This document shows, in pieces, positions 27,310 through 64,000 of a stretch of 64,000 nucleotides of DNA. The DNA lies in the NCBI GenBank assembly GCA_021292105.1, contig CM037872.1, forward strand, positions 12,116,791 through 12,180,790, read 5' to 3'. This DNA comes from Anadara kagoshimensis. Lineage: Eukaryota > Mollusca > Bivalvia > Arcoida > Arcidae. Numbering within the stretch: the stretch's first letter is position 1; every line of letters starts with the position of its first letter. The notes under the pieces are model-generated. The model was given only the letters and a program-made list of their open reading frames with translations, had not been told where the DNA came from and did no database searches. A program made the translations under genes and the position numbers.

Positions 27310-27369
<60 letters not shown>

Positions 27370-28365
27370 TAATTTTTAGCACACAAGATTATCTTTTTTG
27401 TATATTTTTATAGCACGATGCTCTAGTTATAAAAGTCCAAATTTTTGTACAATTTTTGAACGTTTTTATTTTTAACATGATCTAGGTAAAGTGATTATTA
27501 GATTCGATTTTTAGTTGATTGGGAAATATTAATTGATTATTGAAACAAGTCGGTAAACCGTCGCGCATGAGCCCCTATTGTTCATTAGAAACGTTATGTT
27601 CAGATTTTTTTAAGTTCTCGTGAACTTTTAGAATATTATTGTATTTTGCCGATCATGTCCTGGTAGTAAAAAGTAATATTATTGTATATTGATCCTCTCT
27701 CTCCAAAACGTTACACATGGCTTTGTCCTTACCAGTGTCAGGTTTATGTTGCATTCTTTTCACAGTTCAGGTCGATAAATAAAATAAAATAAAATAAAAT
27801 AAAATATTGCAATTAACTATTCAGCATTGGATTTGTTGGTTCAATTAGATTAATATCAAATCATCTTGTTATGAAAAATAAACATAAGAAAACTCATAGT
27901 ATTTATTTATTTATTTATTTATTTATGTAAAAACATTAATATAGCTAGAATGGAATATTTAAAAACGCTGATTTAATTTTTATTTTAACTTAGAATAAGC
28001 ATATAAGACCCCGACAAAACGTATTTAAAACAAATACTTGAAACATTTATATAATTATGATTTCGTACAAATTTTCAATAAGCTGGACATATGGATGTAA
28101 TTTTTTTTTCATCATTTTATTACGAGATGCATTCAAGTCATTAGTGTCTAATCCGTCTGCGTTTAGCCAGAGACAGATAAAACCCCGATTGGATTTTTGT
28201 CGAGCACTTGTTATTGCTCTCCCAAATTGGAATTATCTAACAGGTCACGCTCGACTGAACAACACTACCATCTTTATAACACACCTGTATCCGATGGTCA
28301 GTATAGGACGACTTCTAATGTAGGGGCAGATAACCCTTCAAATCGGATCTCGATTTCTGGACATG
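25469..28365 (+). repeat. Array unit 1
   Basis: Landmarks: sub-repeats at about 25618-25740, 25834-25950 and 26481-26600; GC-rich block GGCGGATCCAGCGGGGGGCC at 26939; GA run about 27312-27367; AAAAT pentamer run about 27780-27805; TTTA run about 27900-27925; an 88-codon frame at 28057-28323. It also holds two smaller internal duplications (about 26775-26935 and 27085-27190). Confidence 0.95.
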
Positions 28366-30199
28366 CATACGCAGAAATCAAATCGACCCGTAGCTGCGCA
28401 TGCGTGAAATAATCTTAAGACGGCTATACCTGCGGTCACACCTGTACATTACTTTACTATGGGAAAGTAAAAGGTGGAGATTTTAAACCTGTTTTCGTTT
28501 TTAAAATAAATTTTATGAAAATCTTATAGTTACCATAAGAAACTACAGATTGTCATGAACATTCAAATATAAAAATGATCTAGTTGTGTTAAAAAAAACC
28601 GTTTCCACTTTTAATTACAAATTTTGGTGACATATACTCATAATATTTGAAGTACAGTATGCGGAGTCCGTCAATTTTTTGAAAATTGTGTGTTTTTAAA
28701 CACAAATTATTAATTCAAAGACAAAATTTAGGAAAATCTTATAGTTACCACTAGAAAATATAAATCTTCCTGAATATTCAAATATTGAATTCATGAAGAT
28801 ACCTTTAAAAAAACCGTTTCCACTTTTAAATTGAAAATTGTGTGAAAACGGGTTTTACAACTGTTTAGTTACATGTTCAGTCGAGTGTACAGACAACTGC
28901 TACACGGGAATTGTTGAATTGTAACAGTGGCATTTTATTATTTGTAGAATTCATAAGAAAATTTGTTGATTTGTTTTATTATTATTTTCCAGTAATTATT
29001 ACGGGCCTGGTAAATTTCGTATTAATTAGAACTTTAAAATTTGAACAATGAAAATTTCTCCATAAATCCGAACCATTCAGTAGATAATATAAATGAATCA
29101 GTGACATTAGATATAGCTAGATTCCCACTCATTTAATAAATGTAGATACATGTATTTCCAAGTGGATAATTTTATTTACTGGAAAATAATATTCTCAACA
29201 TTTTTTTTTATAATTCTTTCTATTGTCGTACTTCAGGTAGAATAAACAAAACAGAAAACTTAGATCCTATCACTGCAATTTTATATTGTTATAACCATTG
29301 CTTTATATAAAGTTACAATGGGAACTAGATATACCCGATTTTCAAATTTAAATTTCACCAATAACAATATTATTTTCTGAAAATGTCTGGTTCTCAGTGA
29401 AAATACATACTGTCACGAATATTCAAATATAAAATTATTTAAATATTTTGAAAAAAATCCATTCCACTTTTTTATTTAAAATATGGTGACATTTTACTTA
29501 ATTTCCCTATGAAACTCATTAGAAAGTGCACAGCACTGTTTTTATAAACAGCTTTTTTCTTCTTAAAGAAATTGAAAATTTGAAAATCAGGTGATACAAT
29601 ATTTGTATCAATATTTCAGTCAGTGGATCAATTCTAATTAAATCAAGTTAGAGAAATAGGAAGTAATGAAATGTGCACATTTTTATTTTCCATTTTATCA
29701 TATTTCTTATTTATTTAACTAATAGAGTATGAGACTTTAAAATAACAAAAGTTCAGAAATTTATTTAAAGAGGAAAAAATGCACATTTTTATTTATTACA
29801 TTTCTTATTCATTTAACTCATAATATTACCGTGGCGGATCCAGCGGGGGCCTCCCAGTTGCCCCGACTTCCCCCTCTCTCTCACAGCTAATTGTCAATCA
29901 CCCAGCGTAATGACCAGTTAATTAGTGGTACTGATTAATTAATTCGTGTCCACCCTTGCAATCAGGGATGATGTAATTTACCAGTTTGCTGAAGCATGAA
30001 AGAATCCAGGTAGTACTGACAAGTCTTAGGTGATAAGGTTATTTACCTGATCGCTGAGGCGTGAAAGAAACCAGGTACCAGTAGATAACGTTAATTAGTA
30101 ATACTTATTAAGCATACATATATTTTATTATAGTCTCACCCATGAAGAGACTTCTATGAATAGTGATTCCATTAATCATCTAATTTACCGACATGGCCA

Positions 30200-30250
<51 letters not shown>

Positions 30251-31248
30251 AACTAATTTTTAGCACACAAGATTATCTTTTTTGTATATTTTTATAGCAC
30301 GATGCTCTAGTTATAAAAGTCCAAATTTTTGTACAATTTTTGAACGTTTTTATTTTTAACATGATCTAGGTAAAGTGATTATTAGATTCGATTTTTAGTT
30401 GATGGGAAATATTAATTGATTATTGAAACAAGTCGGTAAACCGTCGCGCATGAGCCCCTATTGTTCATTAGAAACGTTATGTTCAGATTTTTTTAAGTTC
30501 TCGTGAACTTTTAGAATATTATATTGTATTTTGCCGATCATGTCCTGGTAGTAAAAAGTAATATTATTGTATATTGATCCTCTCTCTCCAAAACGTTACA
30601 CATGGCTTTGTCCTTACCAGTGTCAGGTTTATGTTGCATTCTTTTCACAGTTCAGGTCGATAAATAAAATAAAATAAAATAAAATAAAATATTGCAATTA
30701 ACTATTCAGCATTGGATTTGTGGTTCAATTAGATTAATATCAAATCATCTTGTTATGAAAAATAAACATAAGAAAACTCATAGTATTTATTTATTTATTA
30801 TTTATTTATGTAAAAACATTAATATAGCTAGAATGGAATATTTAAAAACGCTGATTTAATTTTTATTTTAACTTAGAATAAGCATATAAGACCCCGACAA
30901 AACGTATTTAAAACAAATACTTGAAACATTTATATAATTATGATTTCGTACAAATTTTCAATAAGCTGGACATATGGATGTAATTTTTTTTTCATCATTT
31001 TATTACGAGATGCATTCAAGTCATTAGTGTCTAATCCGTCTGCGTTTAGCCAGAGACAGATAAAACCCCGATTGGATTTTTGTCGAGCACTTGTTATTGC
31101 TCTCCCAAATTGGAATTATCTAACAGGTCACGCTCGACTGAACAACACTACCATCTTTATAACACACCTGTATCCGATGGTCAGTATAGGACGACTTCTA
31201 ATGTAGGGGCAGATAACCCTTCAAATCGGATCTCGATTTCTGGACATG
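28366..31248 (+). repeat. Array unit 2
   Basis: Same order of landmarks. The GA run at about 30199-30250 is interrupted by GG. The 88-codon frame at 30940-31206 is identical in translation to unit 1. Confidence 0.95.
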
Positions 31249-33071
31249 CATACGCAGAAATCAAAATCGACCCGTAGCTGCGCATGCGTGAAATAATCTT
31301 AAGACGGCTATACCTGCGGTCACACCTGTACATTACTTTACTATGGGAAAGTAAAAGGTGGAGATTTTAAACCTTGTTTTCGTTTTTAAAATAAATTTTA
31401 TGAAAATCTTATAGTTACCATAAGAAACTACAGATTGTCATGAACATTCAATATAAAAATGATCTAGTTGTGTTAAAAAAACCGTTTCCACTTTTAATTA
31501 CAAATTTTGGTGACATATACTCATAATATTTGAAGTACAGCTATGCGGAGTCCGTCAATTTTTGAAAATTGTGTGTTTTTAAACACAAATTATTAATTCA
31601 AAGACAAAATTTAGGAAAATCTTATAGTTACCACTAGAAAATATAAATCTTCCTGAATATTCAAATATTGAATTCATGAAGATACCTTTAAAAAAACCGT
31701 TTCCACTTTTAAATTGAAAATTGTGTGAAAACGGGTTTTACAACTGTTTAGTTACATGTTCAGTCGAGTGTACAGACAACTGCTACACGGGAATGGTTGA
31801 ATTGTAACAGTGGCATTTTATTATTTGTAGAATTCATAAGAAAATTTGTTGATTTGTTTTATATTATTTTCCAGTAATTATTACGGGCCTGGTAAATTTC
31901 GTATTAATTAGAACTTTAAAATTTGAACAATGAAAATTTCTCCATAAATCCGAACCATTCAGTAGTAATATAAATGAATCAGTGACATTAGATATAGCTA
32001 GATTCCCACTCATTTAATAAATGTAGATACATGTATTTCCAAGTGGATAATTTTATTTACTGGAAAATAATATTCTCAACATTTTTTTATAATTCTTTCT
32101 ATTGTCGTACTTCAGGTAGAATAAACAAAACAGAAAACTTAGATCCTATCACTGCAATTTTATATTGTATAACCATGCTTATATAAAGTTACAATGGGAA
32201 CTAGATATACCCGATTTTCAAATTTAAATTTCACCAATAACAATATTATTTTCTGAAAATGTCTGGTTCTCAGTGAAAATACATACTGTCACGAATATTC
32301 AAATATAAAATTATTTAAATATTTTGAAAAAAATCCATTCCACTTTTTTATTTAAAATATGGTGACATTTTACTTAATTTCCCTATGAAACTCATTAGAA
32401 AGTGCACAGCATGTTTTTATAAACAGCTTTTTTCTTCTTAAAGAAATTGAAAATTTGAAAATCAGGTGATACAATATTTGTATCAATATTTCAGTCAGTG
32501 GATCAATTCTAATTAAATCAAGTTAGAGAAATAGGAAGTAATGAAATGTGCACATTTTTATTTTCCATTTTATCATATTTCTTATTTATTTAACTAATAG
32601 AGTATGAGACTTTAAAATAACAAAAGTTCAGAATTTATTTAAAGAGGAAAAAATGCACATTTTATTTATACATTTTCTTATTCATTTAACTCATAATATT
32701 ACCGTGGCGGATCCAGCGGGGGGCCTCCAGTTGCCCCGACTTCCCCCTCTCTCTCACAGCTAATGTCAATCACCCAGCGTAATGACCAGTTAATTAGTGG
32801 TACTGATTAATTAATTCGTGTCCACCCTTGCAATCAGGGATGATGTAATTTACCAGTTTGCTGAAGCATGAAAGAATCCAGGTAGTATGACAAGTCTTAG
32901 GTGATAAGGTTATTTACCTGATCGCTGAGGCGTGAAAGAAACCAGGTACCAGTAGATAACGTTAATTAGTAATACTTATTAAGCATACATATATTTTATT
33001 ATCGTCTCACCCATGAAGAGACTTCTATGAATAGTGATTCCATTAATCATCTAATTTACCGACATGGCCAA

Positions 33072-33139
<68 letters not shown>

Positions 33140-34133
33140 TAATTTTTAGCACACAAGATTATCTTTTTTGTATATTTTTATAGCACGATGCTCTAGTTAT
33201 AAAAGTCCAAATTTTTGTACAATTTTTGAACGTTTTTATTTTTAACATGATCTAGGTAAAGTGATTATTAGATTCGATTTTTAGTTGATTGGGAAATATT
33301 AATTGATTATTGAAACAAGTCGGTAAACCGTCGCGCATGAGCCCCTATTGTTCATTAGAAACGTTATGTTCAGATTTTTTTAAGTTCTCGTGAACTTTTA
33401 GAATATTATATTGTATTTTGCCGATCATGTCCTGGTAGTAAAAAGTTATTATTGTATATTGATCCTCTCTCTCCAAAACGTTACACATGGCTTGTCCTTA
33501 CCAGTGTCAGGTTTATGTTGCATTCTTTTCACAGTTCAGGTCGATAAATAAAATAAAATAAAATAAAATAAAATATTGCAATTAACTATTCAGCATTGGA
33601 TTTGTTGGTTCAATTAGAGTAATATCAAATCATCTTGTTATGAAAAATAAACATAAGAAAAACTCATAGTATTTATTTATTTATTTATTTATTTATGTAA
33701 AAACATTAATATAGCTAGAATGGAATATTTAAAAACGCTGATTTAATTTTTATTTTAACTTAGAATAAGCATATAAGACCCCGACAAAACGTATTTAAAA
33801 CAAATACTTGAAACATTTATATAATTATGATTTCTACAAATTTTCAATAAGCTGGACATATGGATGTAATTTTTTTTTCATCATTTTATTACGAGATGCA
33901 TTCAAGTCATTAGTGTCTAATCCGTCTGCGTTTAGCCAGAGACAGATAAAACCCCGATTGGATTTTTGTCGAGCACTTGTTATTGCTCTCCCAAATTGGA
34001 ATTATCTAACAGGTCACGCTCGACTGAACAACACTACCATCTTTATAACACACCTGTATCCGATGGTCAGTATAGGACGACTTCTAATGTAGGGGCAGAA
34101 ACCCTTCAAATCGGATCTCGATTTCTGGACATG
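31249..34133 (+). repeat. Array unit 3
   Basis: Carries many private single-base deletions outside homopolymers, e.g. TATATTGTATAACCATGCTT where others read TATATTGTTATAACCATTGC. The longest-class GA run (about 33070-33137) is here. A one-base loss (TTTCTACAAA for TTTCGTACAAA) shifts the start of the 88-codon frame. Confidence 0.95.
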
Positions 34134-35964
34134 CATACGCAGAAATCAAAATCGACCCGTAGCTGCGCATGCGTGAAATAATCTTAAGACGGCTATACCT
34201 GCGGTCACACCTGTACATTACTTTACTATGGGAAAGTAAAAGGTGGAGATTTTAAACCTTGTTTTCGTTTTTAAAATAAATTTTATGAAAATCTTATAGT
34301 TACCATAAGAAACTACAGATTGTCATGAACATTCAAATATAAAAATGATCTAGTTGTGTTAAAAAAAACCGTTTCCACTTTTAATTACAAATTTTGGTGA
34401 CATATACTCATAATATTGAAGTACAGTTATGCGGAGTCCGTCAATTTTTTGAAAATTGTGTGTTTTTAAACACAAATTATTAATTCAAAGACAAAATTTA
34501 GGAAAATCTTATAGTTACCACTAGAAATATAAATCTTCCTGAATATTCAAATATTGAATTCATGAAGATACCTTTAAAAAAACCGTTTCCACTTTTAAAT
34601 TGAAAATTGTGTGAAAACGGGTTTTACAACTGTTTAGTTACATGTTCAGTCGAGTGTACAGACAACTGCTACACGGGAATTGTTGTATGTAACAGTGGCA
34701 TTTTATTATTTGTAGAATTCATAAGAAAATTTGTTGATTTGTTTTATTATTATTTTCCAGTAATTATTACGGGCCTGGTAAATTTCGTATTAATTAGAAC
34801 TTTAAAATTTGAACAATGAAAATTTCTCCATAAATCCGAAACCATTCAGTAGATAATATAAATGAATCAGTGACATTAGATATAGCTAGATTCCCACTCA
34901 TTTAATAAATGTAGATACATGTATTTCCAAGTGGATAATTTTATTTACTGGAAAATAATATTCTCAACATTTTTTTTATAATTCTTTCTATTGTCGTACT
35001 TCAGGTAGAATAAACAAAACAGAAAACTTAGATCCTATCACTGCAATTTTATATTGTTATAACCATTGCTTTATATAAAGTTACAATGGGAACTAGATAT
35101 ACCCGATTTTCAAATTTAAATTTCACAATAACAATATTATTTTCTGAAAATGTCTGGTTCTCAGTGAAAATACATACTGTCACGAATATTCAAATATAAA
35201 ATTATTTAAATTTTGAAAAAAATCCATTCCACTTTTTATTTAAAATATGGTGACATTTTACTTAATTTCCCTATGAAACTCATTAGAAAGTGCACAGCAC
35301 TGTTTTTATAAACAGCTTTTTCTTCTTAAAGAAATTGAAAATTTGAAAATCAGGTGATACAATATTTGTATCAATATTTCAGTCAGTGGATCAATTCTAA
35401 TTAAATCAAGTTAGAGAAATAGGAAGTAATGAAATGTGCACATTTTTATTTTCCATTTTATCATATTTCTTATTTATTTAACTAATAGAGTATGAGACTT
35501 TAAAATAACAAAAGTTCAGAAATTTATTTAAAGAGGAAAAAATGCACATTTTTATTTATTACATTTCTTATTCATTTAACTCATAATATTACCGTGGCGG
35601 ATCCAGCGGGGGGCCTCCCAGTTGCCCCGACTTCCCCCTCTCTCTCACAGCTAATTGTCAATCACCCAGCGTAATGACCAGTTAATTAGTGGTACTGATT
35701 AATTAATTCGTGTCCACCCTTGCAATCAGGGATGATGTAATTTACCAGTTTGCTGAAGCATGAAAGAATCCAGGTAGTACTGACAAGTCTTAGGTGATAA
35801 GGTTATTTACCTGATCGCTGAGGCGTGAAAGAAACCAGGTACCAGTAGATAACGTTAATTAGTAATACTTATTAAGCATACATATATTTTATTATAGTCT
35901 CACCCATGAAGAGACTTCTATGAATAGTGATTCCATTAATCATCTAATTTACCGACATGACCAA

Positions 35965-36014
<50 letters not shown>

Positions 36015-37014
36015 AGAAACTAATTTTTAGCACACAAGATTATCTTTTTTGTATATTTTTATAGCACGATGCTCTAGTTATAAAAGTCCAAATTTTTGTA
36101 CAATTTTTGAACGTTTTTATTTTTAACATGATCTAGGTAAAGTGATTATTAGATTCGATTTTAGTTGATTGGGAAATATTAATTGATTATTGAAACAAGT
36201 CGGTAAACCGTCGCGCATGAGCCCTATTGTTCATTAGAAACGTTATGTTCAGATTTTTTTAAGTTCTCGTGAACTTTTAGAATATTATATTGTATTTTGC
36301 CGATCATGTCCTGGTAGTAAAAAGTAATATTATTGTATATTGATCCTCTCTCTCCAAAACGTTACACATGGCTTTGTCCTTACCAGTGTCAGGTTTATGT
36401 TGCATTCTTTTCACAGTTCAGGTCGATAAATAAAATAAAATAAAATAAAATAAAATATTGCAATTAACTATTCAGCATTGGATTTGTTGGTTCAATTAGA
36501 TTAATATCAAATCATCTTGTTATGAAAAATAAACATAAGAAAACTCATAGTATTTATTTATTTATTTATTTATTTATGTAAAAACATTAATATAGCTAGA
36601 ATGGAATATTTAAAAACGCTGATTTAATTTTATTTTAACTTAGAATAAGCATATAAGACCCCGACAAAACGTATTTAAAACAAATACTTGAAACATTTAT
36701 ATAATTATGATTTCGTACAAATTTTCAATAAGCTGGACATATGGATGTAATTTTTTTTCATCATTTTATTACGAGATGCATTCAAGTCATTAGTGTCTAA
36801 TCCGTCTGCGTTTAGCCAGAGACAGATAAAACCCCGATTGGATTTTTGTCGAGCACTTGTTATTGCTCTCCCAAATTGGAATTATCTAACAGGTCACGCT
36901 CGACTGAACAACACTACCATCTTTATAACACACCTGTATCCGATGGTCAGTATAGGACGACTTCTAATGTAGGGGCAGATAACCCTTCAAATCGGATCTC
37001 GATTTCTGGACATG
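34134..37014 (+). repeat. Array unit 4
   Basis: GA run about 35963-36017. A shortened T-run near 36750 disrupts the 88-codon frame. A one-base difference (GTTGTATGTAAC for GTTGAATTGTAAC) opens a 70-codon frame at 34607-34819 that is closed in other units, which argues against coding function for either frame. Confidence 0.95.
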
Positions 37015-38852
37015 CATACGCAGAAATCAAAATCGACCCGTAGCTGCGCATGCGTGAAATAATCTTAAGACGGCTATACCTGCGGTCACACCTGTACATT
37101 ACTTTACTATGGGAAAGTAAAAGGTGGAGATTTTAAACCTTGTTTTCGTTTTTAAAATAAATTTTATGAAAATCTTATAGTTACCATAAGAAACTACAGA
37201 TTGTCATGAACATTCAAATATAAAAATGATCTAGTTGTGTTAAAAAAACCGTTTCCACTTTTAATTACAAATTTTGGTGACATATACTCATAATATTTGA
37301 AGTACAGCTATGCGGAGTCCGTCAATTTTTTGAAAATTGTGTGTTTTTAAACACAAATTATTAATTCAAAGACAAAATTTAGGAAAATCTTATAGTTACC
37401 ACTAGAAAATATAAATCTTCCTGAATATTCAAATATTGAATTCATGAAGATACCTTTAAAAAAACCGTTTCCACTTTTAAATTGAAAATTGTGTGAAAAC
37501 GGGTTTTTACAACTGTTTAGTTACATGTTCAGTCGAGTGTACAGACAACTGCTACACGGGAATTGTTGAATTGTAACAGTGGCATTTTATTATTTGTAGA
37601 ATTCATAAGAAAATTTGTTGATTTGTTTTATTATTATTTTCCAGTAATTATTACGGGCCTGGTAAATTTCGTATTAATTAGAACTTTAAAATTTGAACAA
37701 TGAAAATTTCTCCATAAATCCGAACCATTCAGTAGATAATATAAATGAATCAGTGACATTAGATATAGCTAGATTCCCACTCATTTAATAAATGTAGATA
37801 CATGTATTTCCAAGTGGATAATTTTATTTACTGGAAAATAATATTCTCAACATTTTTTTTTATAATTCTTTCTATTGTCGTACTTCAGGTAGAATAAACA
37901 AAACAGAAAACTTAGATCCTATCACTGCAATTTTATATTGTTATAACCATTGCTTTATATAAAGTTACAATGGGAACTAGATATACCCGATTTTCAAATT
38001 TAAATTTCACCAATAACAATATTATTTTCTGAAAATGTCTGGTTCTCAGTGAAAATACATACTGTCACGAATATTCAAATATAAAATTATTTAAATATTT
38101 TGAAAAAAATCCATTCCACTTTTTTATTTAAAATATGGTGACATTTTACTTAATTTCCCTATGAAACTCATTAGAAAGTGCACAGCACTGTTTTTATAAA
38201 CAGCTTTTTTCTTCTTAAAGAAATTGAAAATTTGAAAATCAGGTGATACAATATTTGTATCAATATTTCAGTCAGTGGATCAATTCTAATTAAATCAAGT
38301 TAGAGAAATAGGAAGTAATGAAATGTGCACATTTTTATTTTCCATTTTATCATATTTCTTATTTATTTAACTAATAGAGTATGAGACTTTAAAATAACAA
38401 AAGTTCAGATATTTATTTAAAGAGGAAAAAATGCACATTTTATTTATTACATTTCTTATTCATTTAACTCATAATATTACCGTGGCGGATCCAGCGGGGG
38501 GCCTCCCAGTTGCCCCGACTTCCCCCTCTCTCTCACAGCTAATTGTCAATCACCCAGCGTAATGACCAGTTAATTAGTGGTACTGATTAATTAATTCGTG
38601 TCCACCCTTGCAATCAGGGATGATGTAATTTACCAGTTTGCTGAAGCATGAAAGAATCCAGGTAGTACTGACAAGTCTTAGGTGATAAGGTTATTTACCT
38701 GATCGCTGAGGCGTGAAAGAAACCAGGTACCAGTAGATAACGTTAATTAGTAATACTTATTAAGCATACATATATTTTATTATAGTCTCACCCATGAAGA
38801 GACTTCTATGAATAGTGATTCCATTAATCATCTAATTTACCGACATGGCCAA

Positions 38853-38914
<62 letters not shown>

Positions 38915-39449
38915 TAATTTTTAGCACACAAGATTATCTTTTTTGTATATTTTTATAGCACGATGCTCTAGTTATAAAAGTCCAAATTTTTGTACAATTT
39001 TTGAACGTTTTTATTTTTAACATTATCTAGGTAAAGTGATTATTAGATTCGATTTTTAGTTGATTGGGAAATATTAATTGATTATTGAAACAAGTCGGTA
39101 AACCGTCGCGCATGAGCCCCTATTGTTCATTAGAAACGTTATGTTCAGATTTTTTTAAGTTCTCGTGAACTTTTAGAATATTATATTGTATTTTGCCGAT
39201 CATGTCCTGGTAGTAAAAAGTAATATTATTGTATATTGATCCTCTCTCTCCAAAACGTTACACATGGCTTTGTCCTTACCAGTGTCAGGTTTATGTTGCA
39301 TTCTTTTCACAGTTCAGGTCGATAAATAAAATAAAATAAAATAAAATAAAATATTGCAATTAACTATTCAGCATTGGATTTGTTGGTTCAATTAGATTAA
39401 TATCAAATCATCTTGTTATGAAAAATAAACATAAGAAAACTCATAGTAT

Positions 39450-39492
<43 letters not shown>

Positions 39493-39932
39493 TGTAAAAA
39501 CATTAATATAGCTAGAATGGAATATTTAAAAACGCTGATTTAATTTTTATTTTAACTTAGAATAAGCATAGAAGACCCCGACAAAACGTATTTAAAACAA
39601 ATACTTGAAACATTTATAAAATTATGATTTCGTACAAATTTTCAATAAGCTGGACATATGGATGTAATTTTTTTTTCATCATTTTATTACGAGATGCATT
39701 CAAGTCATTAGTGTCTAATCCGTCTGCGTTTAGCCAGAGGCAGATAAAACCCCGATTGGATTTTTGTCGAGCACTTGTTATTGCTCTCCCAAATTGGAAT
39801 TATCTAACAGGTCACGCTCGACTGAACAACACTACCATCTTTATAACACACCTGTATCCGATGGTCAGTATAGGACGACTTCTAATGTAGGGGCAGATAA
39901 CCCTTCAAATCGGATCTCGATTTCTGGACATG
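37015..39932 (+). repeat. Array unit 5 (last)
   Basis: Longest unit, mainly through a longer TTTA run (about 39446-39493). GA run about 38853-38912. It ends exactly at the unit boundary, then passes into single-copy-looking DNA (TTTAGTCTACG). The 88-codon frame is intact at 39624-39890. Confidence 0.95.
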
Positions 39933-40665: not shown

Positions 40666-40677
40666 CAAAAACACACT

Positions 40678-40975
40678 AATTCATGTCCGAATCACAATTC
40701 AGAAGCAAAGTAAAAACTTGAAACTGACACGTGAACTTCCACTAAGGAAGTGAGGCCGGGTGCTCCGGAACGGTAAGCACCTCTTGTTTAGCTAGCTACA
40801 TCCGCCACGTATGTTATCAAAATTATGTGAAAGGAACATGGAACTATGGGACGTCAAATATATCCAGGGCAATTTTGGACACAGACTCATCAAACTTATC
40901 AACAATACAAACTTTTTGAGGGCCTTGATAAGCCTAGGCTTACAATATCCCCGAGTCAACAAACTCTTGTAAATA
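40678..40975 (-). repeat. Dispersed family A copy, reverse
   Basis: Reads as the reverse complement of the 10790 copy: CATGTCCGAATCACAATTC, AACTTCCACTAAGGAAGTG, GGGTGCTCCGGAACGGTAAG, TAGCTAGCTACATCCGCCAC, ATATATCCAGGGCAATTTTG and TGATAAGCCTAGGCTTAC. Good full-length example. Confidence 0.8.
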
Positions 40976-53006: not shown

Positions 53007-53147
53007 GGTAGGAATCAAACCTGTATCATTATATCCCGGGTTCTATAACAATCCCATCACCTCTCTAGGACTGTACAGTGTTAACAGCACCCTGTTATAT
53101 TATTTGGCAAGTTCTGCACACACACTACTAAACATCCATTATCTTCT

Positions 53148-53203
53148 TCACCACTTCATGTCTCTGATAACCCATTTCTGTCTAGCACTATGATCACATG
53201 GTC
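53148..53203 (-). CDS. GALNT: GALNT terminal coding exon
   Basis: Acceptor TTTTATAG|GACCATG, phase 1 in, and stop TGA at 53148-53150. With the preceding base it encodes [18 protein letters not shown]. The Cys and the KW (QxW position) close the third lectin repeat, as in vertebrate GALNTs whose chain ends a few residues after this Trp. The gene therefore ends here. Confidence 0.87.
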
Positions 53204-56200
53204 CTATAAAATAAAATGTATATACATGTAGAATTGCTAGGTTTCCACAAATTAAACATCTATAGTCACCAAATTTCTAAAATTTGTGAAAATTAAATAT
53301 TAAATAGATCCCTTTTTATAGATTTTTTCCACAAATTTACTAAAATATGTCATTTTTTGAAAGAATTCCTTTGAAATTAGTTGTCAATGGCTATGTTACT
53401 TGCCAGGAAAGAAAACTTAGTGTTAAAAAGTTAAAATTGAATTCTCTGGTGTTGATGGCACTACAGATACTGCTAATGGCTTGTAAAAATATGAAAGCTG
53501 TATGAAAATCAGTTCAAAAGCTACATGTAAGGCAAGCCTTTTGGTAACAAGATAAGCAAGACAATATTCAATGGAATTCTTGTTGCAAATACAGTGTCCA
53601 TTCTGGAAGAGTGCTATGGGACCATTGATCACATATTTTGCCTAATGTCCCAAATATCAAGGTTTTAAGGCAACATTTAACATTTGAAAAATGCAAAAAT
53701 ATTGATGATATGGTCTTCTAGGGAAATTTCTAAAAGTGGTCCAATCTGAAACAAGAGGCCCATGGGCCTTAACGCTCACCTGAGGCTAAGTACATATCTC
53801 ATGCAGAGGTTCAATGGTCAATAACATTTATTAAAGAGAACTCCTAATTTTCAGCAGTAAGGCAGAATTAAATGCAAGGATTTTTGCAAATTAATCATAC
53901 CTTGTCCCGAGATTGCTACATATAATATATGTATAATATATTAATATATATATATATATTCTAGCTACAACACATTATTTATAAACAGCTAAAAAAGTAA
54001 AACAAAAGTATGAAACTATGACCTTCATCTATATATCAAAATGATTGTTAGGCCATTACCTACAATATTCGAATATACATGCCTATACAAAAAGTTAATA
54101 GTTTTCGAGATAATTAACCATTTCAGTATCCTTTCCCATCTGTGACCTTGACCTTTGAATCCATGACCTTAATCTATATATCAAAATGATCGTTAAATCA
54201 ATTCCTACAACATTGTATTATACATGTCTATACAAAAAGCTTATAGGTTTTAAGATAATTAACTATTTCAGTATTCTTTTGCATCTGTGACCTTGACCTT
54301 TGAATGCATGACATTAATCTTTATATCAAAATGATCGTTAAATCAAAACCTACAATATTTGAATATACATGTCTAGACAAAAAGTTAAAAGTTTTCGAGA
54401 TAATTAACCATTTATGTATTGATTTGCATCTGTGACCTTGACCTTTGAACCCATGACCTTAATCTATATATCAAAATGATCGTTAAATCAATTCCTACAA
54501 TATTGTAATATACATGTTTATACAAAAAGTTAATAGTTTTCTAGATAATTAACCATTTCGGTATTCTTTCGCATCTGTGACCTTGACCTTTGAACCCATG
54601 ACCTTTATCTATATATCAAAATGACCATTGTGCCATTACCTACAATATTCTAATATATATGCCTATACAAAAAGTTAATAGTTTTGCAGATAATCAACTA
54701 TAACGGAAATAGTTGTGCATCCTTGACCTTGACCTTTGAACTCATGACCTTGATCTATGTATCAAAATGATCGTCATGTCAATACCTACAATTAACTGAA
54801 AATCCCATGCCATTATCACCTGAAGTGTTTAAAAAATAGCATTTTTTATCAAAGGTCAAAAACAGGGACATGACCTTGACCTTTGACCTTGACATGTTTT
54901 GGAAGAAAATAGCAAGACAAGATCAACAGTGAAAACTCCATACAATTATCTTCAGCCGTTATTGAGTTATAACAATAAATGTCTCATTTTCAAAATTACA
55001 TAATTTTACGCAAAAAACGCGTAACCTATTTTTCGTTCAATTTTCATGAAAAACACAATTTTGATGTTCCCAGGTATGCTGAATCTAAATATCTAATCAA
55101 AATTTGCCTGCACCTTTTGATTTCAGAGAAGAAGATTTTTTTGTCTTTTTGCTATTTTTAGTAATGGCGGCCATCTTGTTGGGCGTGGCCAAACCCCGAA
55201 AACAATTTTTAAATGCTGTTACCCAGGCATGATAATCGCCAAGTTTCATCAAATTTGCCCCAGTAGTTTTGGAGAAGATTAAAATGTAAAGTTTACACAC
55301 GATGCACGACGGACGACGCACGGTGATAGATTGCAATAGCTCATCCGAGCCTTTGGCTCAGGTGAGCTAAAAATCTTAAATTGAACACTGCAAATACATC
55401 CATAGTTTCATGTTACAACCAATCTCAATTCTGGTTACATAAATGGTAGGTGCAGCTAGCGAAACATGAGATACTTACCTCCCTTACAAAGCACAAGGCC
55501 ACACTTCCCTGTGGGAGGTTGATGTTTTTATCAAAATTTGCTAGTATCAAAGTTTTAACTTTTCTTGGGGTGGGGATGCGGGGAAAAGAGAGATTTATGA
55601 TTTGAACAATGGCTAGTATTTTTGTTTTTGATGGTTATTGGTTTGTAAAAATGTGAAAACTTCACCTATCTTAAAATCAGACCAAAATTGTAAACCTAAG
55701 TATAGGGCTTAATTGTAACTACAGGAAAGTTGTACATCTTATTTCATGGACTTCTCGTTCCATATGAACCTACCTATAGATGGAGCATCTTTATCTGTTG
55801 GAGCAGAAGCTCCTAAACACTGCTTACTGTTTACATGTTTTATTTCTAAAGTCTGAAAATGAAGACAAAAAGAAAATATTAGCATTTCAGATTTAATTTC
55901 TTTTGACTAAGTATATATCTCTACTTTTATTTGAATTGGTTTGTCACACTCTATAAACTTTATTTAGAATTATTTCACTTTGTTTTTATTCATACCTAAT
56001 TTCAAATAATTCAGTGCTTGAATAAATGAACAACTCCAATAAAACCAAAACATTCTAGATAATTAACAGTATATTGATACTTTCTTTACTTCAATTAGTT
56101 AGCCCATACTTGCCTACCCTTTCTTGAGAATCATGAGACTAGAAGTAAGTTCGGGTAAATTTTGATTGCAAGTTTTACCAAAAACATTCGTAGGGATTCC

Positions 56201-59200
56201 CATATTTGACTTGTTTTAGTCATTAGTTTTAACTGGCAATCATTAGATCTTAATTTTAACTCTAAAATTGTACAACTTGAGCCAAAATTGTAAGGGTAGG
56301 CAAGTTTGGTTTTCCATCGAGTATAAAATACTCTTTACTCTCAACAGTACATCAATCAAATTATTCAATATTTTATCATAACTAAATAGATAAACATTTC
56401 CAATAAAACTAAGTTTTTTGTTTTACATAATGAGTCATAATATTAGGATACATGGCCTTTGACTAGATGAGCTAAAATGAATTATAAGAAACCTATAGGA
56501 ATTTTCTATTTTAAGTTGACAAATGTTCGTCTAAACGAATGAAAGCCGATATCAATTAACTTGCAAACTTGATAGTGCTTTGATCAAGGTACGTCAAAAT
56601 TAAGTTCCATTATCGTTGGCTCAGTGATTCGGGAGAATTAGAAAATGTATTTAAATTAATGATGCACAGCACTTAAATGATAAAACACACACACACACAC
56701 ACTGCATACATATATGTACCACTTGCATTAGCAAATTGGCATATGACAATAGACAACTTTGACCAAAACATCGCAAGTAGCCACATCCGACCCCAAAACC
56801 AGATATGGCAATAAAATGACATTTTCAGACATGCTGTAAGCGAGGCGTATGATTCTTTATAAATATATATACAGTATTTTTAACTTAAACATAAAGCTAA
56901 TTAAAGCCAACATAATCAGTATACATTTCAATTTTCCAAAAAAGCCGACAATGATGATCATGATGATATTGAAGAAGTTCTGTATATTGCATTGCATGCT
57001 CATATGCATTATGATAAGAATATGGATTATATAAATTGTATCTCTCGTAAAACAAATAAATCTGGATTTTGTCTGAATATTTCTAAATAGTTCTGAAAAT
57101 ATATGAATTCATTCTGAATTTTTCTTACACTAAAAATTTGAATAGTTCTGAAAATATATGCATTCTGAATTTGTGTCTAATTTTTTCTGAATATTTTCAT
57201 CTGTCAAATTTTTTTTGAATTTACATGTACATGTACAAAAAATATAAAAACGTTTTTTGAATTTACATGTACATGTACAAAAAATATAAAAACGTTAAAA
57301 ATTCATAACTTTTTCAGAAAAAAATTTCATGAGGGAACAATTTACAAACAAATTAAGGAAATCTTGGTCTTACTTTTTGTTTAAAAAAAACAAACTTTTT
57401 CAGACAAATTTTACAATTTTCTCAGGAGGGAACATTACAATGTGGAAATCTTAAGTCTTACGGTTTGTTAAAAAATCTACACAATATTTGTTAGACAGCA
57501 GTACTTTAAAAGCTGCAACTAAACTTAACCATGATTAGGAACACCACAGGTCCCACTGTATTTTTGTATCAAGTTCCCTAAACCGATGTCACACATGTAA
57601 TAAAATCGATCTTCAGATCTTGTATGTGTAGTTGTAATATTCCCACTAGGAAGAATAGAATTGAGTTGAGTAAATAAAGGTGTTTAACATTCCAGTCAAG
57701 AATATTTCACTTATATCGAGACATTGCCACCTATAAGCGAAAGTGCCTGTGTGTTGCATTTATGGCATTATACAGCAGGGTTCTTTATCATGCCCTGCCT
57801 ACTGTGACACGGGACCTCATTCCTGGTGACAGAACAGTCACTACCCATTTTCAAATCTTGGGTCAGACCTGGGCAGGGATCAAATTCACAACCTCCAACT
57901 TATTGGACTAGCAGTCTGCCAACTGAGTTACTACAGTGGTTTTAAGAAGAAAGATATTTAATGATAAAACAACTGAATGTGAATGAAATTGAATCTTTTG
58001 GAAACATTAATGGCATCCCGTCCTTTACTTTTAGATCTTAGCTGATGGTTTACAGCCGCCATCTTGTAATTGCTTATGTGTATTTTATTAAGTAAATTGA
58101 TCTATGCATAAAATCAAAATTCAACGTATCATCTGTTACAAATTAAAATGAATCGCAATACAAAATTTCACCAGCTAAGCTAAAACAGAATTTTAAATGT
58201 CATTCTCTGAATATTGTAATATATGTTTCTTGATAAATAACATTTTGTGTTACTGTGAAAAAGGGCAATCAAAATATTGACAGAAATATAATAAAAATAA
58301 AGTAGTAACAAGAGGCAGAAATAAAAGTACAAGTAGGGGTTAGTCAAAGAGAGAGTGAAATGTTTTCTAAATTGAAAGTAACTATTAGACACACGGTAGG
58401 CTAGGCATTAGTAAAAAAAGGTTGAAGTGTGTTTTAAATTGATCAGAAGAATTAGACACACTGTTAGCTTAAACTTTCATGTTAAATGATTTGTATAATG
58501 AAATATTGTTGACCTTGGTTTTTGTGCTTCTTTGAATCAGGGACCATTGTGGTAGCTCAGTTGGTAGAGTGCTGGCTCTGTACGTGGGAGGTCTAGGGTT
58601 TGAACCCTTGACCCAAGACTTGAAAGCGGATGGAGACTGTTCTTTCGCCAAGCACTCAGCATTTACAAAATGAAAGTCACAGTTCTTTCAGATGGGAACT
58701 TAAAACATAGAGGTCCCATGGCATAATAGGCATGGTAGGCATGGATTGATAAAGAACCCTGCTGTATAACCATTATTACCCCAATCAACTCCTTCATATG
58801 GGATTTTGGAGTCCAATTATGCACAAAAACCCAAGTTAGCAAACTTCACCATACAAAGTCAATCACCTTTTTTATTATATACTTTAGTTTTCAAATTATG
58901 CCATAACTACTGTTTTAAAGATACATGTTCACAAAAGAATACAAAATTGATGTAAATTAAGACAAATGCAATGACAGCATCATAGTCTGTGCTCGTCAAA
59001 CTTTTAAATGGTTCTTTATCTTAATTGGAAGGAACTAGTTCCATCTTAATAGACAGTGGGCTGAAAAATAATAACTGGAATCATTACAAATGTGAGTAGT
59101 GTAGTAATGATGGTCATCTTTGAAATTGTGGAGGAAACTAGAGTGGCCAAAGTAGACCACCAACCTCTGCCAAGTGGGCACACAAATATTGAAAAGTAAT

Positions 59201-60653
59201 GAAATTTAAAAATGAAATCATTACAAAGGAGTAGCAATGACTAATTGTGTTTTATGCCCCAGTCAAAATTCTTTCACTCACATTGAGGTTGTCAGATCAG
59301 GAAGGGTTTAGGAAACCCGAGTGCCTGAGAAAACGAACAACCTTTGACAAGCTTTCCCACTCTAGAATCTGCACTGAGTAGGATTCCAACGTAGGTGGTG
59401 GAAGGTGCTGTGATCCCTAAACACCCATTTTATATAACTTGATCACCGAGTCCCCTCCCCCTTTCCCCTTTCCCAAAGGAGTTGAGTAATGGTGTTTAAC
59501 ATCCCAGTCCAGAATATTTCACTTATATCCAGATGTCGCCAGCTATTGGCTAAGGTGCAGAAATTTTGCATGTGCTTGCACTGTTGGAATTATACAGCAG
59601 GATTCTTTATTGTGCCCCACCTACAGTGACATAGGGCCTTGTTCATTTTAAGTTCCCATCCAAAAGAACCGTGACTTTCATTTTGTAATGTCTAGTGCTT
59701 GGCAAAAGAACAATCACTACCCACTTTCAAGTCTTGGGGCGGACCTGGTCAGGATTTGAATCCACGACCTCCCACTTATGGAGCCAGCACTCTACCAACT
59801 AAGCTATCGCAGTGGTCACCTTTCCAAAGGAAAAAGAACCAACGGAAAAAAAATGTGGGAATCATTTAAATGTAAAAAGAAATATCACATCTGAAGCATA
59901 TACCGGTAATTAGTGTGAGTACTTAAAGAATTAATATACAATTGATGGATCGCCAGCCACGCCCACAATGTTCCGACAAAGGCCACGCATGCTTGAATGA
60001 CACACAAAAAGAATGAAAACTTGGCCTGAATTGTGCCATTTAATGACGTCACTGACACTAGTACATCATTAATTGCCGTGGCGCTGCGTTAGTACCGCGA
60101 TGGTAGCAAGTGTCGGAACATAAAAGGTGTGGCCCGCGATATGTCAATTAAACACAACAGACAAAATAATAATGGATACATAAACAAACAAATAAGATGC
60201 AACAATTCTAACATAGCTCCTGCATAGTCATAGATACATAGTCATGCTAGGGTGAAAAATTAGGATGATGAACCAAACTGTTAATTACAGGTATAACACA
60301 AACAGGTGAAAAATCTTGCCATTCTAGATCTTCTGATAACAAATTCTAAAAGTCTATTAACACTGTGATAACACCTAATAATACAAACTAATTTTATTTA
60401 GTTTTTTTTTTGGAATACTGCAAAGGGGAATATTTTCGCAGGGTCGAAATTTTGCGATATCTGAAATCTGACATTTTGCGTGGGTGTAACCAATATAAGT
60501 GGGTGTATATTCTATATATAATGATATTAAACTGTATGGTAGACATTTTTGCGTGTGTAAACTTTTGCAGTAATTTCTCTAGTGTGAAATAAGCGAATAT
60601 TTTACCCCCTTTACAGTATCATGGACAACTCTAAAAACCCCAGATCATTCCTA

Positions 60654-60714
<61 letters not shown>

Positions 60715-63098
60715 TCAATCTCATTTTCAAGCTCATTGCTTTCATTTTCTATTGCTCAGTATTTGGTAAAAGAAAATTAACTACCATTTTACAAAACAAA
60801 AAATGTTTTTTTTTTATATTTCAAAAAGAGAATGCACGTCAATATTTAATTGTTGTGCTCATATTCAGGTATTCCCATGTAAAATAGAAATAATTAACTT
60901 AGATAAAAAGACAAAAACATTATTACGATTTGTGTACGTCTATAAAGAAAACAGAATGCCAAGATTTTCATGTGAAGAAACAATTACATGTACAGAAATC
61001 TATATTAACCTAAACCACAACAGTATCTCAAATTTTCTGTCACTATTATGTAATACCTTAGTCACTCTTATCAAGTCAATCAGAAAGCCGAAATGGGTCC
61101 AAGTGGGCCAGAGCATAAAATGATTAAAAAAATATTGGTATTGTGGTGTTTAATAAGAGAGTTTTTGAAAATATACCCATCTGAAAAATCTGAAGATTGA
61201 ACACTGTCCAACATTTACAATACAGTCAAACTTGTCTCTACCTGCCAACCAAGAGGGAACCAGTAACAGTGGTCTTTATAGACAGGTGGTCCTTATATTC
61301 AGATTAAAATAACATGAATAAAGAGTAACCAGGATAAAATTTTACTGGCCTTCAAAAGCAGGTGACACTTACATAAAGGTGGCCTTAAAGGCAGGTGACA
61401 CTTACATAGAGTTGGCCTTAAAGGCAGGTGACACTTACAAGTTACATGGGGTGGCCTTAAAGGCAGGTTCCACTGTATGTTAAATATTCTAAAAAAGACA
61501 GGAAATAGTTTGAAGTCTTCACTTGTCCACACAGGGGTTTGAAATTCTCAGGTCCGAGGTCCCGGACCCATTGATTTTACACTGGGACCCTTGATATTTA
61601 AACTGAAAGTACCATGTACCTGTGGTTTTTTTTCAGGCTCTTTTTTTTTTGACAATTGCATATGGACCTATCAATGTTGATATTGGACTTTCAAAACGTT
61701 ATTTGGTACATGCCAAAAATAATAATGGCAAAAGGTTCTGAAACTGTCATTACAAAACATGATTTTGAACCCTGTCACAGAATTAATAGTTGGTTATGTT
61801 TTGGTGTTTTTTTGAATTTTTTTTTGACAACAACATCAAAATACAGTCAGTAGTACAGGAAATTTGAGAAACTCGATGCAGCAACCCTCACCAACAAAAT
61901 AGGTATTTAGTTTTTTGTGGAGTTTTAAATCTACCTCTTTATTGTAATCCCAAAATCCCTGTCCACTACTACAACGGACAAAGTTGACAATTCCATAGTT
62001 AGAATCTATACAGACGTCGTCATCCGTCATCAATTGCTTCTTGGATGTATACGTAAACACCTACAGTTTGCATGCAGCCAAGGACAGCAAGAAAGGAAAG
62101 TTTCATTAAAAAAAAAATCTTTTAAAAAAACCACACAAAATTTAAATAAGTTTAGCTAAGGCTAAAACACAGTTATTTATTATAAACATGAAGGGGAAAT
62201 AAAAATTGAAGTGCTTCAATGCTAACAGCATGCTGAGTCGTCAATGTCATTACGAGACCTGTAAGTAAAACAAAACTGTTACTATGGTAACTAATTTCTA
62301 ACAGATAAGACACCTGACACTGCTTATTCAATTCATTCTCTCACTCAAAATTTCTTTTTGTCTTGGTTTGTCAGAATTTTGTCTCTTCAAAAGACTTTAT
62401 GACCCCACCCCCCAATAAATTCTGCATTATACACCACAAAATGAAACTACAAGTGACAAACTTTACATAAAACTCGATGAATTTAACTTGAGTTTTGAGT
62501 TTTAACTTTAATAGCAGTTCTTCAACTTGTATTACTTTTTTGCATATTTTTTAAAGAATCATAAATTTGACGATTAAAATAGGTTTAATTTTTGAAAGAA
62601 TTTCTCAGAAATTAGTATCCAACGATGATTTGGTCTACCAGGGATAGAAAACATAGATAATTACATATTATACCAGTTTTAATTTTACAGCACTAGACAA
62701 TACAATTCCTCATCAGTAGTGCTTGGACCAAAATTGTGAAACCAAATTTTTTTTTAAGCTGTTGAAAAGAGACCCAAAGGACCAAAATAAATTTTTTATG
62801 TTTCATAATGAATGTGTTGAATAAACTATGTTTCGAAAGGACCAAAATATATTTCATGTTTTATAATGAATGTGTTGAATAAACAATGTCTGATGTCCGA
62901 CCTCACAAGTACGAGTAGAAACATGCAACAGGAGAAGGTTCCTGATGTTGTGTTTGTCTTTACCTTGCGGTTATACTCCCACTGCTGATTGCCCCCTAAA
63001 CCGTGACACTGAAATAATTTGACCGGTCCACTGATAGCAGACACATCTAGACATATATCGTCTGTCTGAAGGGCTTTCTTTTTTGTATATGAAAACAC
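53148..63098 (-). CDS. GALNT: Polypeptide N-acetylgalactosaminyltransferase, 3' end (lectin domain)
   Basis: The 3' part of a GALNT1/13-like gene. The family enzyme is a type II Golgi membrane protein that transfers GalNAc from UDP-GalNAc to Ser/Thr (first step of mucin-type O-glycosylation). Only the C-terminal ricin-B lectin domain is in the window. Exons in transcript order: 62964-63098 (or alternative 61935-62060), 55774-55852, 53148-53203. The translation contains TDDICLDVS and GGNQQWEYN (beta repeat), then [14 protein letters not shown] (gamma repeat CL motif), then [13 protein letters not shown] and a stop. Introns are phase 0, 0 and 1 with GT-AG ends. The lectin domain guides the enzyme to already glycosylated substrates. 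The catalytic domain and first lectin repeat lie beyond 64000. Paralogue assignment (GALNT1 versus 13) is by memory of the motif pattern only. Confidence 0.9.
53753..55372 (+). mobile_element. Composite mollusc-type repeat with internal 186-bp tandem
   Basis: Begins ACAAGAGGCCCATGGGCCTT AACGCTCACCTGAG and ends GAGCCTTTGGCTCAGGTGAG CTAAAAA, so the ends contain complementary CTCACCTGAG and CTCAGGTGAG. Between 53995 and 54800 are about five tandem units of about 186 bp containing TGACCTTGACCTTTGAACCC ATGACC, ATCTATATATCAAAATGAT and ACAAAAAGTTAATAGTTTTC. The later part (CACGATGCACGACGGACGAC) is characteristic of a repeat widespread in bivalves. No coding capacity. Confidence 0.8.
55432..55635 (+). 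repeat. Diverged family A copy
   Basis: Blocks in family A order: GGTGCAGCTAGCGAAACATG, ACTTCCCTGTGGGAGGTTGA, AAGTTTTAACTTTTCTTGGG and GCTAGTATTTTTGTTTTTG. Confidence 0.6.
55774..55852 (-). CDS. GALNT: GALNT lectin gamma-repeat exon
   Basis: 79 nt, phase 0 to 1. Acceptor ATTTTCAG|ACTTTA and donor TCTATAG|GTAGGT. It encodes [20 protein letters not shown] and [14 protein letters not shown] is the start of the third lectin repeat. The CLD Asp is replaced by Gly (CLG), so this repeat probably does not bind sugar. Confidence 0.9.
55853..57674 (-). other. GALNT intron, first part
   Basis: No exon. An AC microsatellite lies at about 56680-56702. A direct duplication (TTTTTTGAATTTACATGTAC followed by ATGTACAAAAAATATAAAAA) is at about 57207 and 57253. 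Around 57060-57420 is a TTCTGAA-rich repeat related to 49790-50040. Confidence 0.55.
57675..57945 (-). mobile_element. tRNA-derived SINE, internally shortened
   Basis: The minus-strand head contains CCACTGTAGTAACTCAGTTG GCAGACTGC. The body has CTACTGTGACACGGGAC (plus sense: CCTACTGTGACACGGGACC) and the tail GGTGTTTAACATTCCAGTCA AGAATATTTC (plus sense). Same family as the 59475 copy, more diverged. Confidence 0.7.
58548..58775 (+). mobile_element. tRNA-derived SINE, 3'-truncated
   Basis: Head TGTGGTAGCTCAGTTGGTAG AGTGCTGGCTC and GGGTTTGAACCC give a good A box and B box. The body matches the 59475 copy (AAGACTTGAAAGCGG, GTTCTTTCGCCAAGCACT, AGAACCCTGCTGTATAA). The tail part is missing. Not called as a tRNA gene because no full cloverleaf closes. 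Confidence 0.78.
59475..59818 (-). mobile_element. Full-length tRNA-derived SINE
   Basis: On the minus strand it starts CCACTGCGATAGCTTAGTTG GTAGAGTGC (A-box-like) with GTGGATTCAAATCC (B-box-like) about 35 bases on, like a tRNA head. The body contains AAGACTTGAAAGTGGGTAG and GTCACTGTAGGTGGGGCACA, and the tail GATATAAGTGAAATATTCTG GACTGGGATGTTAAACACCA. About 340 bp. Pol III promoter boxes are recognisable but imperfect. Confidence 0.8.
59951..60138. repeat. Foldback element FB6 in GALNT intron
   Basis: Left arm CGCCAGCCACGCCCACAATG TTCCGACA, right arm TGTCGGAACATAAAAGGTGT GGCCCGCG. The outer arms pair over about 28 bases with an internal mismatch patch. The interior also contains an AATGACGTCACTGACACTAG segment. 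Confidence 0.65.
60138..61349 (-). other. GALNT intron interior, GT microsatellite
   Basis: A GT/TG dinucleotide run of about 50 bases lies at 60656-60708. No exon is seen. Small plus-strand frames here (60410-61123) lack recognisable domains. Confidence 0.55.
61350..61475. repeat. Short tandem repeat, about four copies
   Basis: The unit GGCCTTAAAGGCAGGTGACA followed by CTTACATA recurs with a period of 32-40 bp in the GALNT intron between exon B and the next exon. It follows a repeat (about 61220-61310) with CAGTCAAACTTGTCTC and GGTGGTCCTTATATTCA. Confidence 0.8.
61935..62060 (-). CDS. GALNT: GALNT lectin beta-repeat exon, form B (alternative)
   Basis: 126 nt, 42 codons, phase 0 to 0. Acceptor AAACTGTAG|GTGTTTAC and donor AAAGAG|GTAGAT. 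It encodes [20 protein letters not shown], then [15 protein letters not shown]. About 20 of 42 positions match form A. The CxD motif is kept, the Gln of QxW is displaced, and the CHGLGGN loop is replaced by a shorter CSSGQG. It sits 903 bp downstream of form A in transcription order, in the same phase, so either can join the next exon. Confidence 0.87.
62061..62963 (-). other. Intron between the two alternative GALNT exons
   Basis: 903 bp, no other exon. It contains a fragment (about 62685-62750, CAGTAGTGCTTGGACCAAAA) shared with transporter intron 2, and a short direct duplication (GAATGTGTTGAATAAAC near 62810 and 62867). Confidence 0.65.
62964..63098 (-). CDS. GALNT: GALNT lectin beta-repeat exon, form A (canonical)
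   Basis: 135 nt, 45 codons, phase 0 to 0. Acceptor GATTTACAG|GTGTTTTC and donor CGCAAG|GTAAAG. It encodes [14 protein letters not shown], then ICLDV with the CLD motif, then [17 protein letters not shown] with the QxW motif. It closely follows the GALNT1/13 pattern. Confidence 0.92.
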
Positions 63099-63423
63099 CT
63101 GTAAATCGGTATCTAATAAGTATTAGTAGATATAATGAATATATATATAAAACAATGCATAATTTTAATTATCACAATAACTGTTATATCATGAAAACAA
63201 GCAAATTCAGTAAATTAATATCCCCTGCCAAAAGGTTCTATTTTTGTGTGATTTGCACTTATGTTCAAAGAGCCATAACTCCAGCTAACGAACTCAGGTT
63301 AACGATATGCGCATCTCCTATCTATGTTCATATTTTGCACCAAGTTTCATTAAATAGTGCCTCACAGTGTTGGAGAATTTCTGCAGACAAGAATTTCGGG
63401 AAGGAAGGATGGCTGCAAACTCC

Positions 63424-63774
63424 AATGAGATACATTTGGCGGGAAACAGTATCAGGACCACATCTTGTGTGCAGGACAGTGAATTACCACACCCTGTTCA
63501 CATTTCTATGTTGATTACGTCACTGATAACACTATTTACGTCACAATGTCTTCGGTTATCCGGGAAGCATATTTCTTAAAAATTCATGCGTAAACAGAAA
63601 AAATTTATTTAGATCTTATAATTTAAGATTAAAATTATAAGATCTGGATACATCTTTTAATTGGTGTTATCAGTGACGTAATCAACAATAAAATGTGAAC
63701 AGTCTGTGGCAATTCACTGCCCCGCAGACACGAAGCGGTCCTGATACTGTTTCCCGCCATATGTATCTCATTTA
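63424..63774. repeat. Long-arm foldback element FB7
   Basis: Arms of about 110 bases: left 63424-63532 (ATGAGATACATTTGGCGGGA ... GTCACTGATAACAC) and right 63664-63774 (GTGTTATCAGTGACGTAATC ... TCCCGCCATATGTATCTCAT). The core contains a further palindrome AGATCTTATAATTT ... AAATTATAAGATCT. It lies in the intron upstream of GALNT exon A. Confidence 0.88.
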
Positions 63775-64000
63775 ATATGGAAAGGCAGTGGATAATCAAT
63801 CATAAACAAACACGAAATCTGTGAGTTACTGCTCACTTAGTATACCCCAGCTTTTAACATATGTAAGAATGCAAACAAAATGTGAAGCAGATGTCAAGCA
63901 GACTTGAAATCAGCACTTGGGGTCTCATGTTGAACTCGCATACAAAACTTCAAATGGTTGTGTTTAGCAGTTACTGTTGTTTGTTTGGAACAGATGGCAG
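63775..64000 (-). other. Remaining intron sequence to window edge
   Basis: No exon visible; upstream GALNT exons must lie beyond the window. Confidence 0.5.

Follow-up and report, generated by a model that had tools for sequence, protein, structure and literature searches.

Tandem exon swaps are already known in the GALNT family of polypeptide GalNAc-transferases, where substitutions of this kind in GALNT13, Pgant5 and gly-5 represent vertebrates, arthropods and nematodes and have been read as a set of convergent events (PMC9741552). Use of exons 8A and 8B of Drosophila pgant9 depends on the tissue (PMC6115407), and PGANT5, which has two isoforms, has been contrasted with GalNAc-T1 (PMC12776162, a preprint). 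In GalNAc-T1 the GalNAc motif, composed of Asp, His and Asn, is found in both the alpha and the beta repeat of the lectin domain, and among the human isoenzymes only GalNAc-T1 and T13 carry this motif in two lectin repeats (PMC10901373). The beta repeat of GalNAc-T1 binds a GalNAc located C-terminally and steers transfer to the N-terminal side, and the alpha and beta repeats of this enzyme act jointly on doubly glycosylated peptides (PMC10901373; PMC12776162); changing residue 484 to Ala disrupts beta binding (PMC10901373). The tandem exon pair described here, which lies in the beta repeat of a GALNT gene and is a further variant of these known swaps, was found in a stretch of 64,000 nucleotides (nt) from the bivalve Anadara kagoshimensis (GenBank assembly GCA_021292105.1, contig CM037872.1, positions 12,116,791 to 12,180,790), hereafter called the window.

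Judged from its sequence, the window contains the 3' end of a polypeptide GalNAc-transferase gene of the GALNT1/GALNT13 type, in which the lectin beta repeat is duplicated. The two exons, A and B, are probably used singly as a tandem pair, with A switching the GalNAc site of the beta repeat on, B switching it off, and Rbfox perhaps choosing between them. The last exons of the gene enter the window from its right end on the minus strand, and are given here in the order of transcription with their window positions:

62964-63098, minus strand: exon A, 135 nt, 45 codons, phase 0-0; lectin beta repeat in which the Asp (CLD), His (CHG), Asn (GNQ) and QxW are kept
62061-62963, minus strand: intron between exons A and B, 903 nt, GT...AG
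61935-62060, minus strand: exon B, 126 nt, 42 codons, phase 0-0; alternative beta repeat in which the Asp (CID) is kept and the His (now CSS), the Asn and the QxW spacing are lost
55774-55852, minus strand: next exon, phase 0-1, in which the gamma repeat begins
53148-53203, minus strand: last coding exon, which completes the gamma repeat and carries the stop codon, read from the sequence and then spliced in silico

AG/GT borders are present at the splice sites of all these exons, and either exon A or exon B splices in frame into a 44-residue tail that is common to both forms. The original prediction, which proposed a swapped exon pair at 61935..63098 and named no strand, gave the span exactly: read on the minus strand, exon A starts at 63098 and exon B ends at 61935. 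It was also correct that both exons are phase 0-0 and fit the same following exon. The position 53148 that it quoted is where the stop codon of the final exon ends, the next exon being 55774-55852. No exons encoding the GT-A catalytic domain or the alpha repeat were found within the 64-kilobase window; they should lie beyond base 64000.

The assignment of these exons to the lectin beta repeat of a GALNT gene, made at the outset from the letters of the DNA, is borne out by comparison with GALNT1. When exon A was joined to the gamma-repeat tail, the product aligned with GALNT1 (Protein Data Bank entry 1xhb, which we take to be the mouse enzyme) over 87 residues with no gaps at an expectation value (E) of 2.1e-28, and with the family members PGANT9 and GALNT2 at E 2.6e-14 and E 4.9e-8, respectively; the 15 sequences matched did not include GALNT13, so this comparison does not distinguish T1 from T13. 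By itself, exon A had GALNT1 (1xhb) as its best Protein Data Bank match (E 1.4e-16) and was recognized by the Pfam family Ricin_B_lectin (E 7.3e-8). The first match of the spliced B form was also GALNT1 (E 3.6e-14), in the same register as the A form. Both exons start directly after the GNQ that closes the alpha repeat, span the beta repeat and have their best alignment with GALNT1 beta, from its residue 467 onward, and the global score of exon B against GALNT1 beta (69.5) was above that of all 20,000 shuffles (maximum 34.5).

That two neighbouring exons encode homologous versions of one repeat is likewise sustained, because their identity lies far above that of shuffled sequences and they are interchangeable in frame with the same phases. 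A pairwise alignment with three gaps, through all of which the reading frame is preserved, gave 19 identical residues among the 41 aligned and a score of 80, which is ~11 standard deviations over the mean of 20,000 shuffles (mean -4.4, standard deviation 7.4, maximum 43.5). When exon A was searched by tblastn against the whole window with the low-complexity filter and composition correction off, the best match other than itself was exon B (E 1.5e-6), and the one following had E 1.1. In addition, a profile made from A, B and GALNT1 beta was run on the 2,105 six-frame segments of 20 amino acids or more, and just A and B, which match their own profile by construction, passed the inclusion threshold (next E 0.032); no third alternative exon was found among these segments, the intron upstream of A running past the window end. 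An arrangement of two tandem gene copies was rejected as unlikely because a gamma probe and a 26-residue alpha probe each gave a single clear match in the window, the former at 55775-55849 (E 1.35e-4; next 0.29) and the latter inside exon A (E 1.7e-4; next 0.69), although such short probes might miss weak copies. As expected for an animal gene, no relatives were found in two scans each of viral_contigs and genome_contigs.

Comparison of the codons of A and B suggests that exon B is constrained as protein. Identity between the two exons at the first, second and third codon positions was 22, 29 and 16 of 41, respectively, and Fisher tests separated the second from the third position (p 0.007) and the first and second together from the third (p 0.02). 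In 20,000 runs of a neutral simulation that started from exon A and continued to the observed third-position divergence, a mean of 4.9 of the 41 residues remained identical, the maximum was 15, so that 19 was never reached, and a stop-free frame was left in 4% of runs. With three quarters of this change, 19 or more identical residues were found in 0.2% of runs. It is because of this codon-position bias and these simulations that exon B looks constrained, in a test that a recent loss of use would escape.

The differences between the two exons fall in part on the GalNAc motif. At the aligned motif positions exon A has Asp, His and Asn, and exon B has Asp, Ser and Gln; by numbering through a match to 8v9q, the Asp of CLD in A and that of CID in B both correspond to D484 of GalNAc-T1, and H498 and N503, numbers that were assigned by alignment to 8v9q and not taken from the paper, fall at the CH and GNQ of exon A. 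The original prediction had credited exon A with the complete motif and QxW, and exon B with a shorter loop, a displaced Gln and a retained CxD, and each of these features was recovered: the loop of B is two residues shorter than that of A, there is no Gln at the QxW place, and the Asp is present. The form containing exon A would be a two-site enzyme whose beta repeat could bind a GalNAc that the substrate already carries, so that the next transfer would occur on its N-terminal side. In the form containing exon B, the fold would be kept and beta binding would be lost or altered, as expected of a pocket without the His and Asn, so that the enzyme would rely on its alpha repeat or on a beta site of other preference. 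Judging by these residues, a loss or change of beta binding is predicted and, with it, probably an effect on substrates.

The same comparison bears on a different role for exon B, namely as an alternative beta repeat that acts through charge or peptide contact, like the charged loop of PGANT9, and not through loss of a GalNAc site. Net charge (counting K, R, D and E) changes from +2 in A to -2 in B, and at the position of Lys496, through which GalNAc-T1 contacts Muc5AC-13 (PMC10901373), the alignment places a Gln in A and an Arg in B, both of which would suit such a role. However, two of the A/B differences hit the motif His and Asn, and the PGANT9 effect comes from a longer alpha loop nearer the active site (PMC6115407), whereas the loop of B is shorter, so this alternative is considered very unlikely.

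Several observations count against a pair of beta repeats that are used singly to switch a GalNAc site. On the side of the protein, the score of the spliced B form owes much to the gamma tail that it shares with the A form, exon B alone gave no Pfam match at E 10 or below, and its best Protein Data Bank match by itself was the unrelated protein TLP-IPT (E 0.0014), with GALNT1 at E 0.48. AlphaFold models of the lone exons were of low confidence, with mean pLDDT (predicted local distance difference test) values of 51.6 for A and 52.6 for B, and 38% of neutral runs reached 19 of 41 identical residues when half the change was applied. Loss of the His and Asn may also leave some beta binding in the B form; some GalNAc-Ts without the canonical residues still act on glycopeptides (PMC10901373). 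On the side of splicing, alternative use of A and B is predicted from the sequence, and the reading frame does not enforce exclusivity because in silico splicing of A and B together, or of neither exon, also preserves the frame, with no stop codon when both are present. The 903-nt intron and a 56-nt AG-free stretch before B argue against steric exclusion. Splice-site strength favours neither exon, as the last 25 bases contain 14, 15 and 21 pyrimidines for A, B and the gamma exon, and the corresponding donors match the consensus at 7/9, 6/9 and 7/9 positions, so that neither A nor B stands out.

Some of these observations would be accounted for if exon B were a relic, a duplicate that is unused or used at noise level only. 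Exon B has lost two of the three GalNAc motif residues together with the QxW spacing, its donor is one position further from the consensus than that of A, and Pfam does not recognize it alone, all as such a relic might be. Against this stand the lack of any stop codon or frameshift in B, the codon-position bias described above and its intact AG/GT borders, and we therefore regard a relic as quite unlikely.

The frames bear in turn on the proposal that exon B acts as a cassette, joining A in a subset of transcripts and so giving a lectin domain of four repeats. The original prediction had noted that inclusion of both exons would add a fourth repeat, and the in-frame, stop-free junction of A and B agrees with this; the A-to-B junction is not forbidden by the sequence, and 903 nt is long enough to splice. 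Even so, B is homologous to A along its full length and has the same repeat start and end positions, as expected of substitutes, and a beta-trefoil closes with three repeats, which leaves the cassette highly improbable.

Mutual exclusivity of A and B is retained as part of the explanation that we consider probable overall. As for how it might be imposed, exclusivity through frame and surveillance, through U2/U12 incompatibility or through steric closeness is unsupported by the frames, donors and intron length, the donors GTAAAG and GTAGAT being presumably not of U12 consensus. A search for intron-intron pairing gave no convincing docking pair among the inverted repeats within 60500-64000.

A candidate for the regulator is provided by two copies of one hexamer that flank the pair:

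62922-62927, minus strand: TGCATG, candidate Rbfox enhancer of exon A, 36 nt downstream of that exon in the intron between A and B
62071-62076, minus strand: TGCATG, candidate Rbfox silencer of exon B, 10 nt before exon B

Rbfox proteins acting at a downstream site lead to inclusion of an exon and at an upstream site to its skipping, and copies of the motif are over-represented at 10 to 80 nt downstream of exons that are included (PMC5840707). In Caenorhabditis elegans egl-15, ASD-1 and FOX-1 repress exon 5B via a UGCAUG in the upstream intron (PMC3585155). The layout found here fits this position rule, and therefore exon A is predicted to be used where Rbfox is present and exon B where it is absent; Rbfox-type proteins on UGCAUG would activate A from its 3' side and block the acceptor of B. 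Only one further UGCAUG (53800-53805) occurs on the gene strand in 53100-64000. The chance of both placements, within two 60-nt stretches, is ~2.4e-4 for this motif alone, a value that precedes counting the other five of six motif classes from which the Rbfox motif was picked post hoc. Across the window TGCATG shows no enrichment, with 35 copies against 31.2 expected, and some rare hexamer is common to 14% of random pairs of stretches; these points, too, tell against the proposal. A role for Rbfox in the A/B choice is thus offered tentatively and with some doubt. A fuller scheme, a directionality switch in which A gives a bidirectional two-site enzyme and B an alpha-only enzyme, with Rbfox setting the choice via one activating and one repressing UGCAUG, is in our view unlikely. 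As in the mutually exclusive egl-15 5A/5B pair, the intron that precedes the exon to be repressed contains a UGCAUG here; egl-15 is a different gene, the regulator of the present pair is only proposed, and here another UGCAUG comes after exon A.

The age of the duplication can be approached through identities among the repeats, which are 26/42 for A and GALNT1, 19/41 for A and B, 16/38 for B and GALNT1, and 17/42 for gamma and GALNT1. The exon pair may be very old, as B is roughly as far from GALNT1 as gamma is and A is nearer to GALNT1 than to B. Three-way site patterns (A=B at 3 sites, A=GALNT1 at 9 and B=GALNT1 at 0) are compatible with an old split and also with a recent B that has changed fast.

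Other features of the window, which has a G+C content of 32.3% overall, include two within the GALNT gene. Its last intron contains a satellite-like array at 54011-54792 (period 145, 5.4 copies), and the intron upstream of exon A contains a 115-nt inverted repeat (63424-63538 and 63658-63772, 87% complementary, 119 nt apart) that resembles a fold-back mobile element. Elsewhere, five head-to-tail units of ~2.9 kilobases each, 98.4-98.7% alike, occupy 25469-39932. On the minus strand, 12377-13264 holds two adjacent open frames, both of which we presume to be mariner-like; the frame at 12377-12796 matches DDE_3 transposase (E 6.4e-7), and that at 12797-13264 matches no Pfam family. Also on the minus strand, 15316-16173 is a reverse-transcriptase-like fragment (RVT_1, E 9.2e-7, 29.2 bits for a cut-off of 29.6). 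A dispersed repeat of up to ~300 base pairs, 71-83% alike and in both orientations, is found at 10791-11144, 17990-18145, 19643-19852, 20043-20311 and 40669-40974.

The alternative exon of GALNT13 may lie in the lectin domain, a placement for which the original prediction had cited this gene as a precedent. The tandem-exon event itself is in print (PMC9741552), and the lectin-domain placement is not given in the available text of that source; vertebrate GALNT13 and C. elegans gly-5 resemble the present gene in belonging to the same family and, as proposed here, in exchanging tandem duplicated exons by splicing, the position of these exons in the protein not being stated there. An exon swap in the beta repeat was not noticed among the titles and first lines of abstracts in the literature searched, although none of the searches was aimed at invertebrate exons of this repeat. 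The available portions of PMC5288242, PMC5041531, PMC8616257 and PMC8472655 contain nothing on lectin exon swaps.

Drosophila pgant9, the other precedent invoked, is like what is proposed for the present gene in that splicing of exons 8A and 8B exchanges one lectin repeat and changes its charge (PMC6115407). That part of the precedent stands, but the repeat exchanged in pgant9 is alpha and not beta (PMC6115407), and the spliced A form is nearer to GALNT1 than to PGANT9, as the E values above indicate; the exons in the window encode the beta repeat, not a Pgant9-type alpha-repeat switch. Drosophila pgant5, the fly orthologue of GALNT1, also has two splice forms, A and B, and the stretch that they exchange, residues 398-457, comprises a catalytic loop and a helix-turn-helix outside the lectin domain (PMC12776162), whereas the exons described here lie within that domain and so do not form a Pgant5-type catalytic-loop switch. 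Because the present pair is in the beta repeat, it is an event distinct from both of those in the fly. In comparison with the dual-site lectin domain of GalNAc-T1, exon A reproduces the beta motif, with no gaps, and the form with exon B would be without it. If this explanation is correct, loss of the beta site alone through a natural splice switch would offer a ready test of the role of the second site in an animal, and the beta repeat would join the catalytic loop of pgant5, the alpha repeat of pgant9 and the GALNT13 and gly-5 events as sites at which exon duplication varies the preference of these enzymes.

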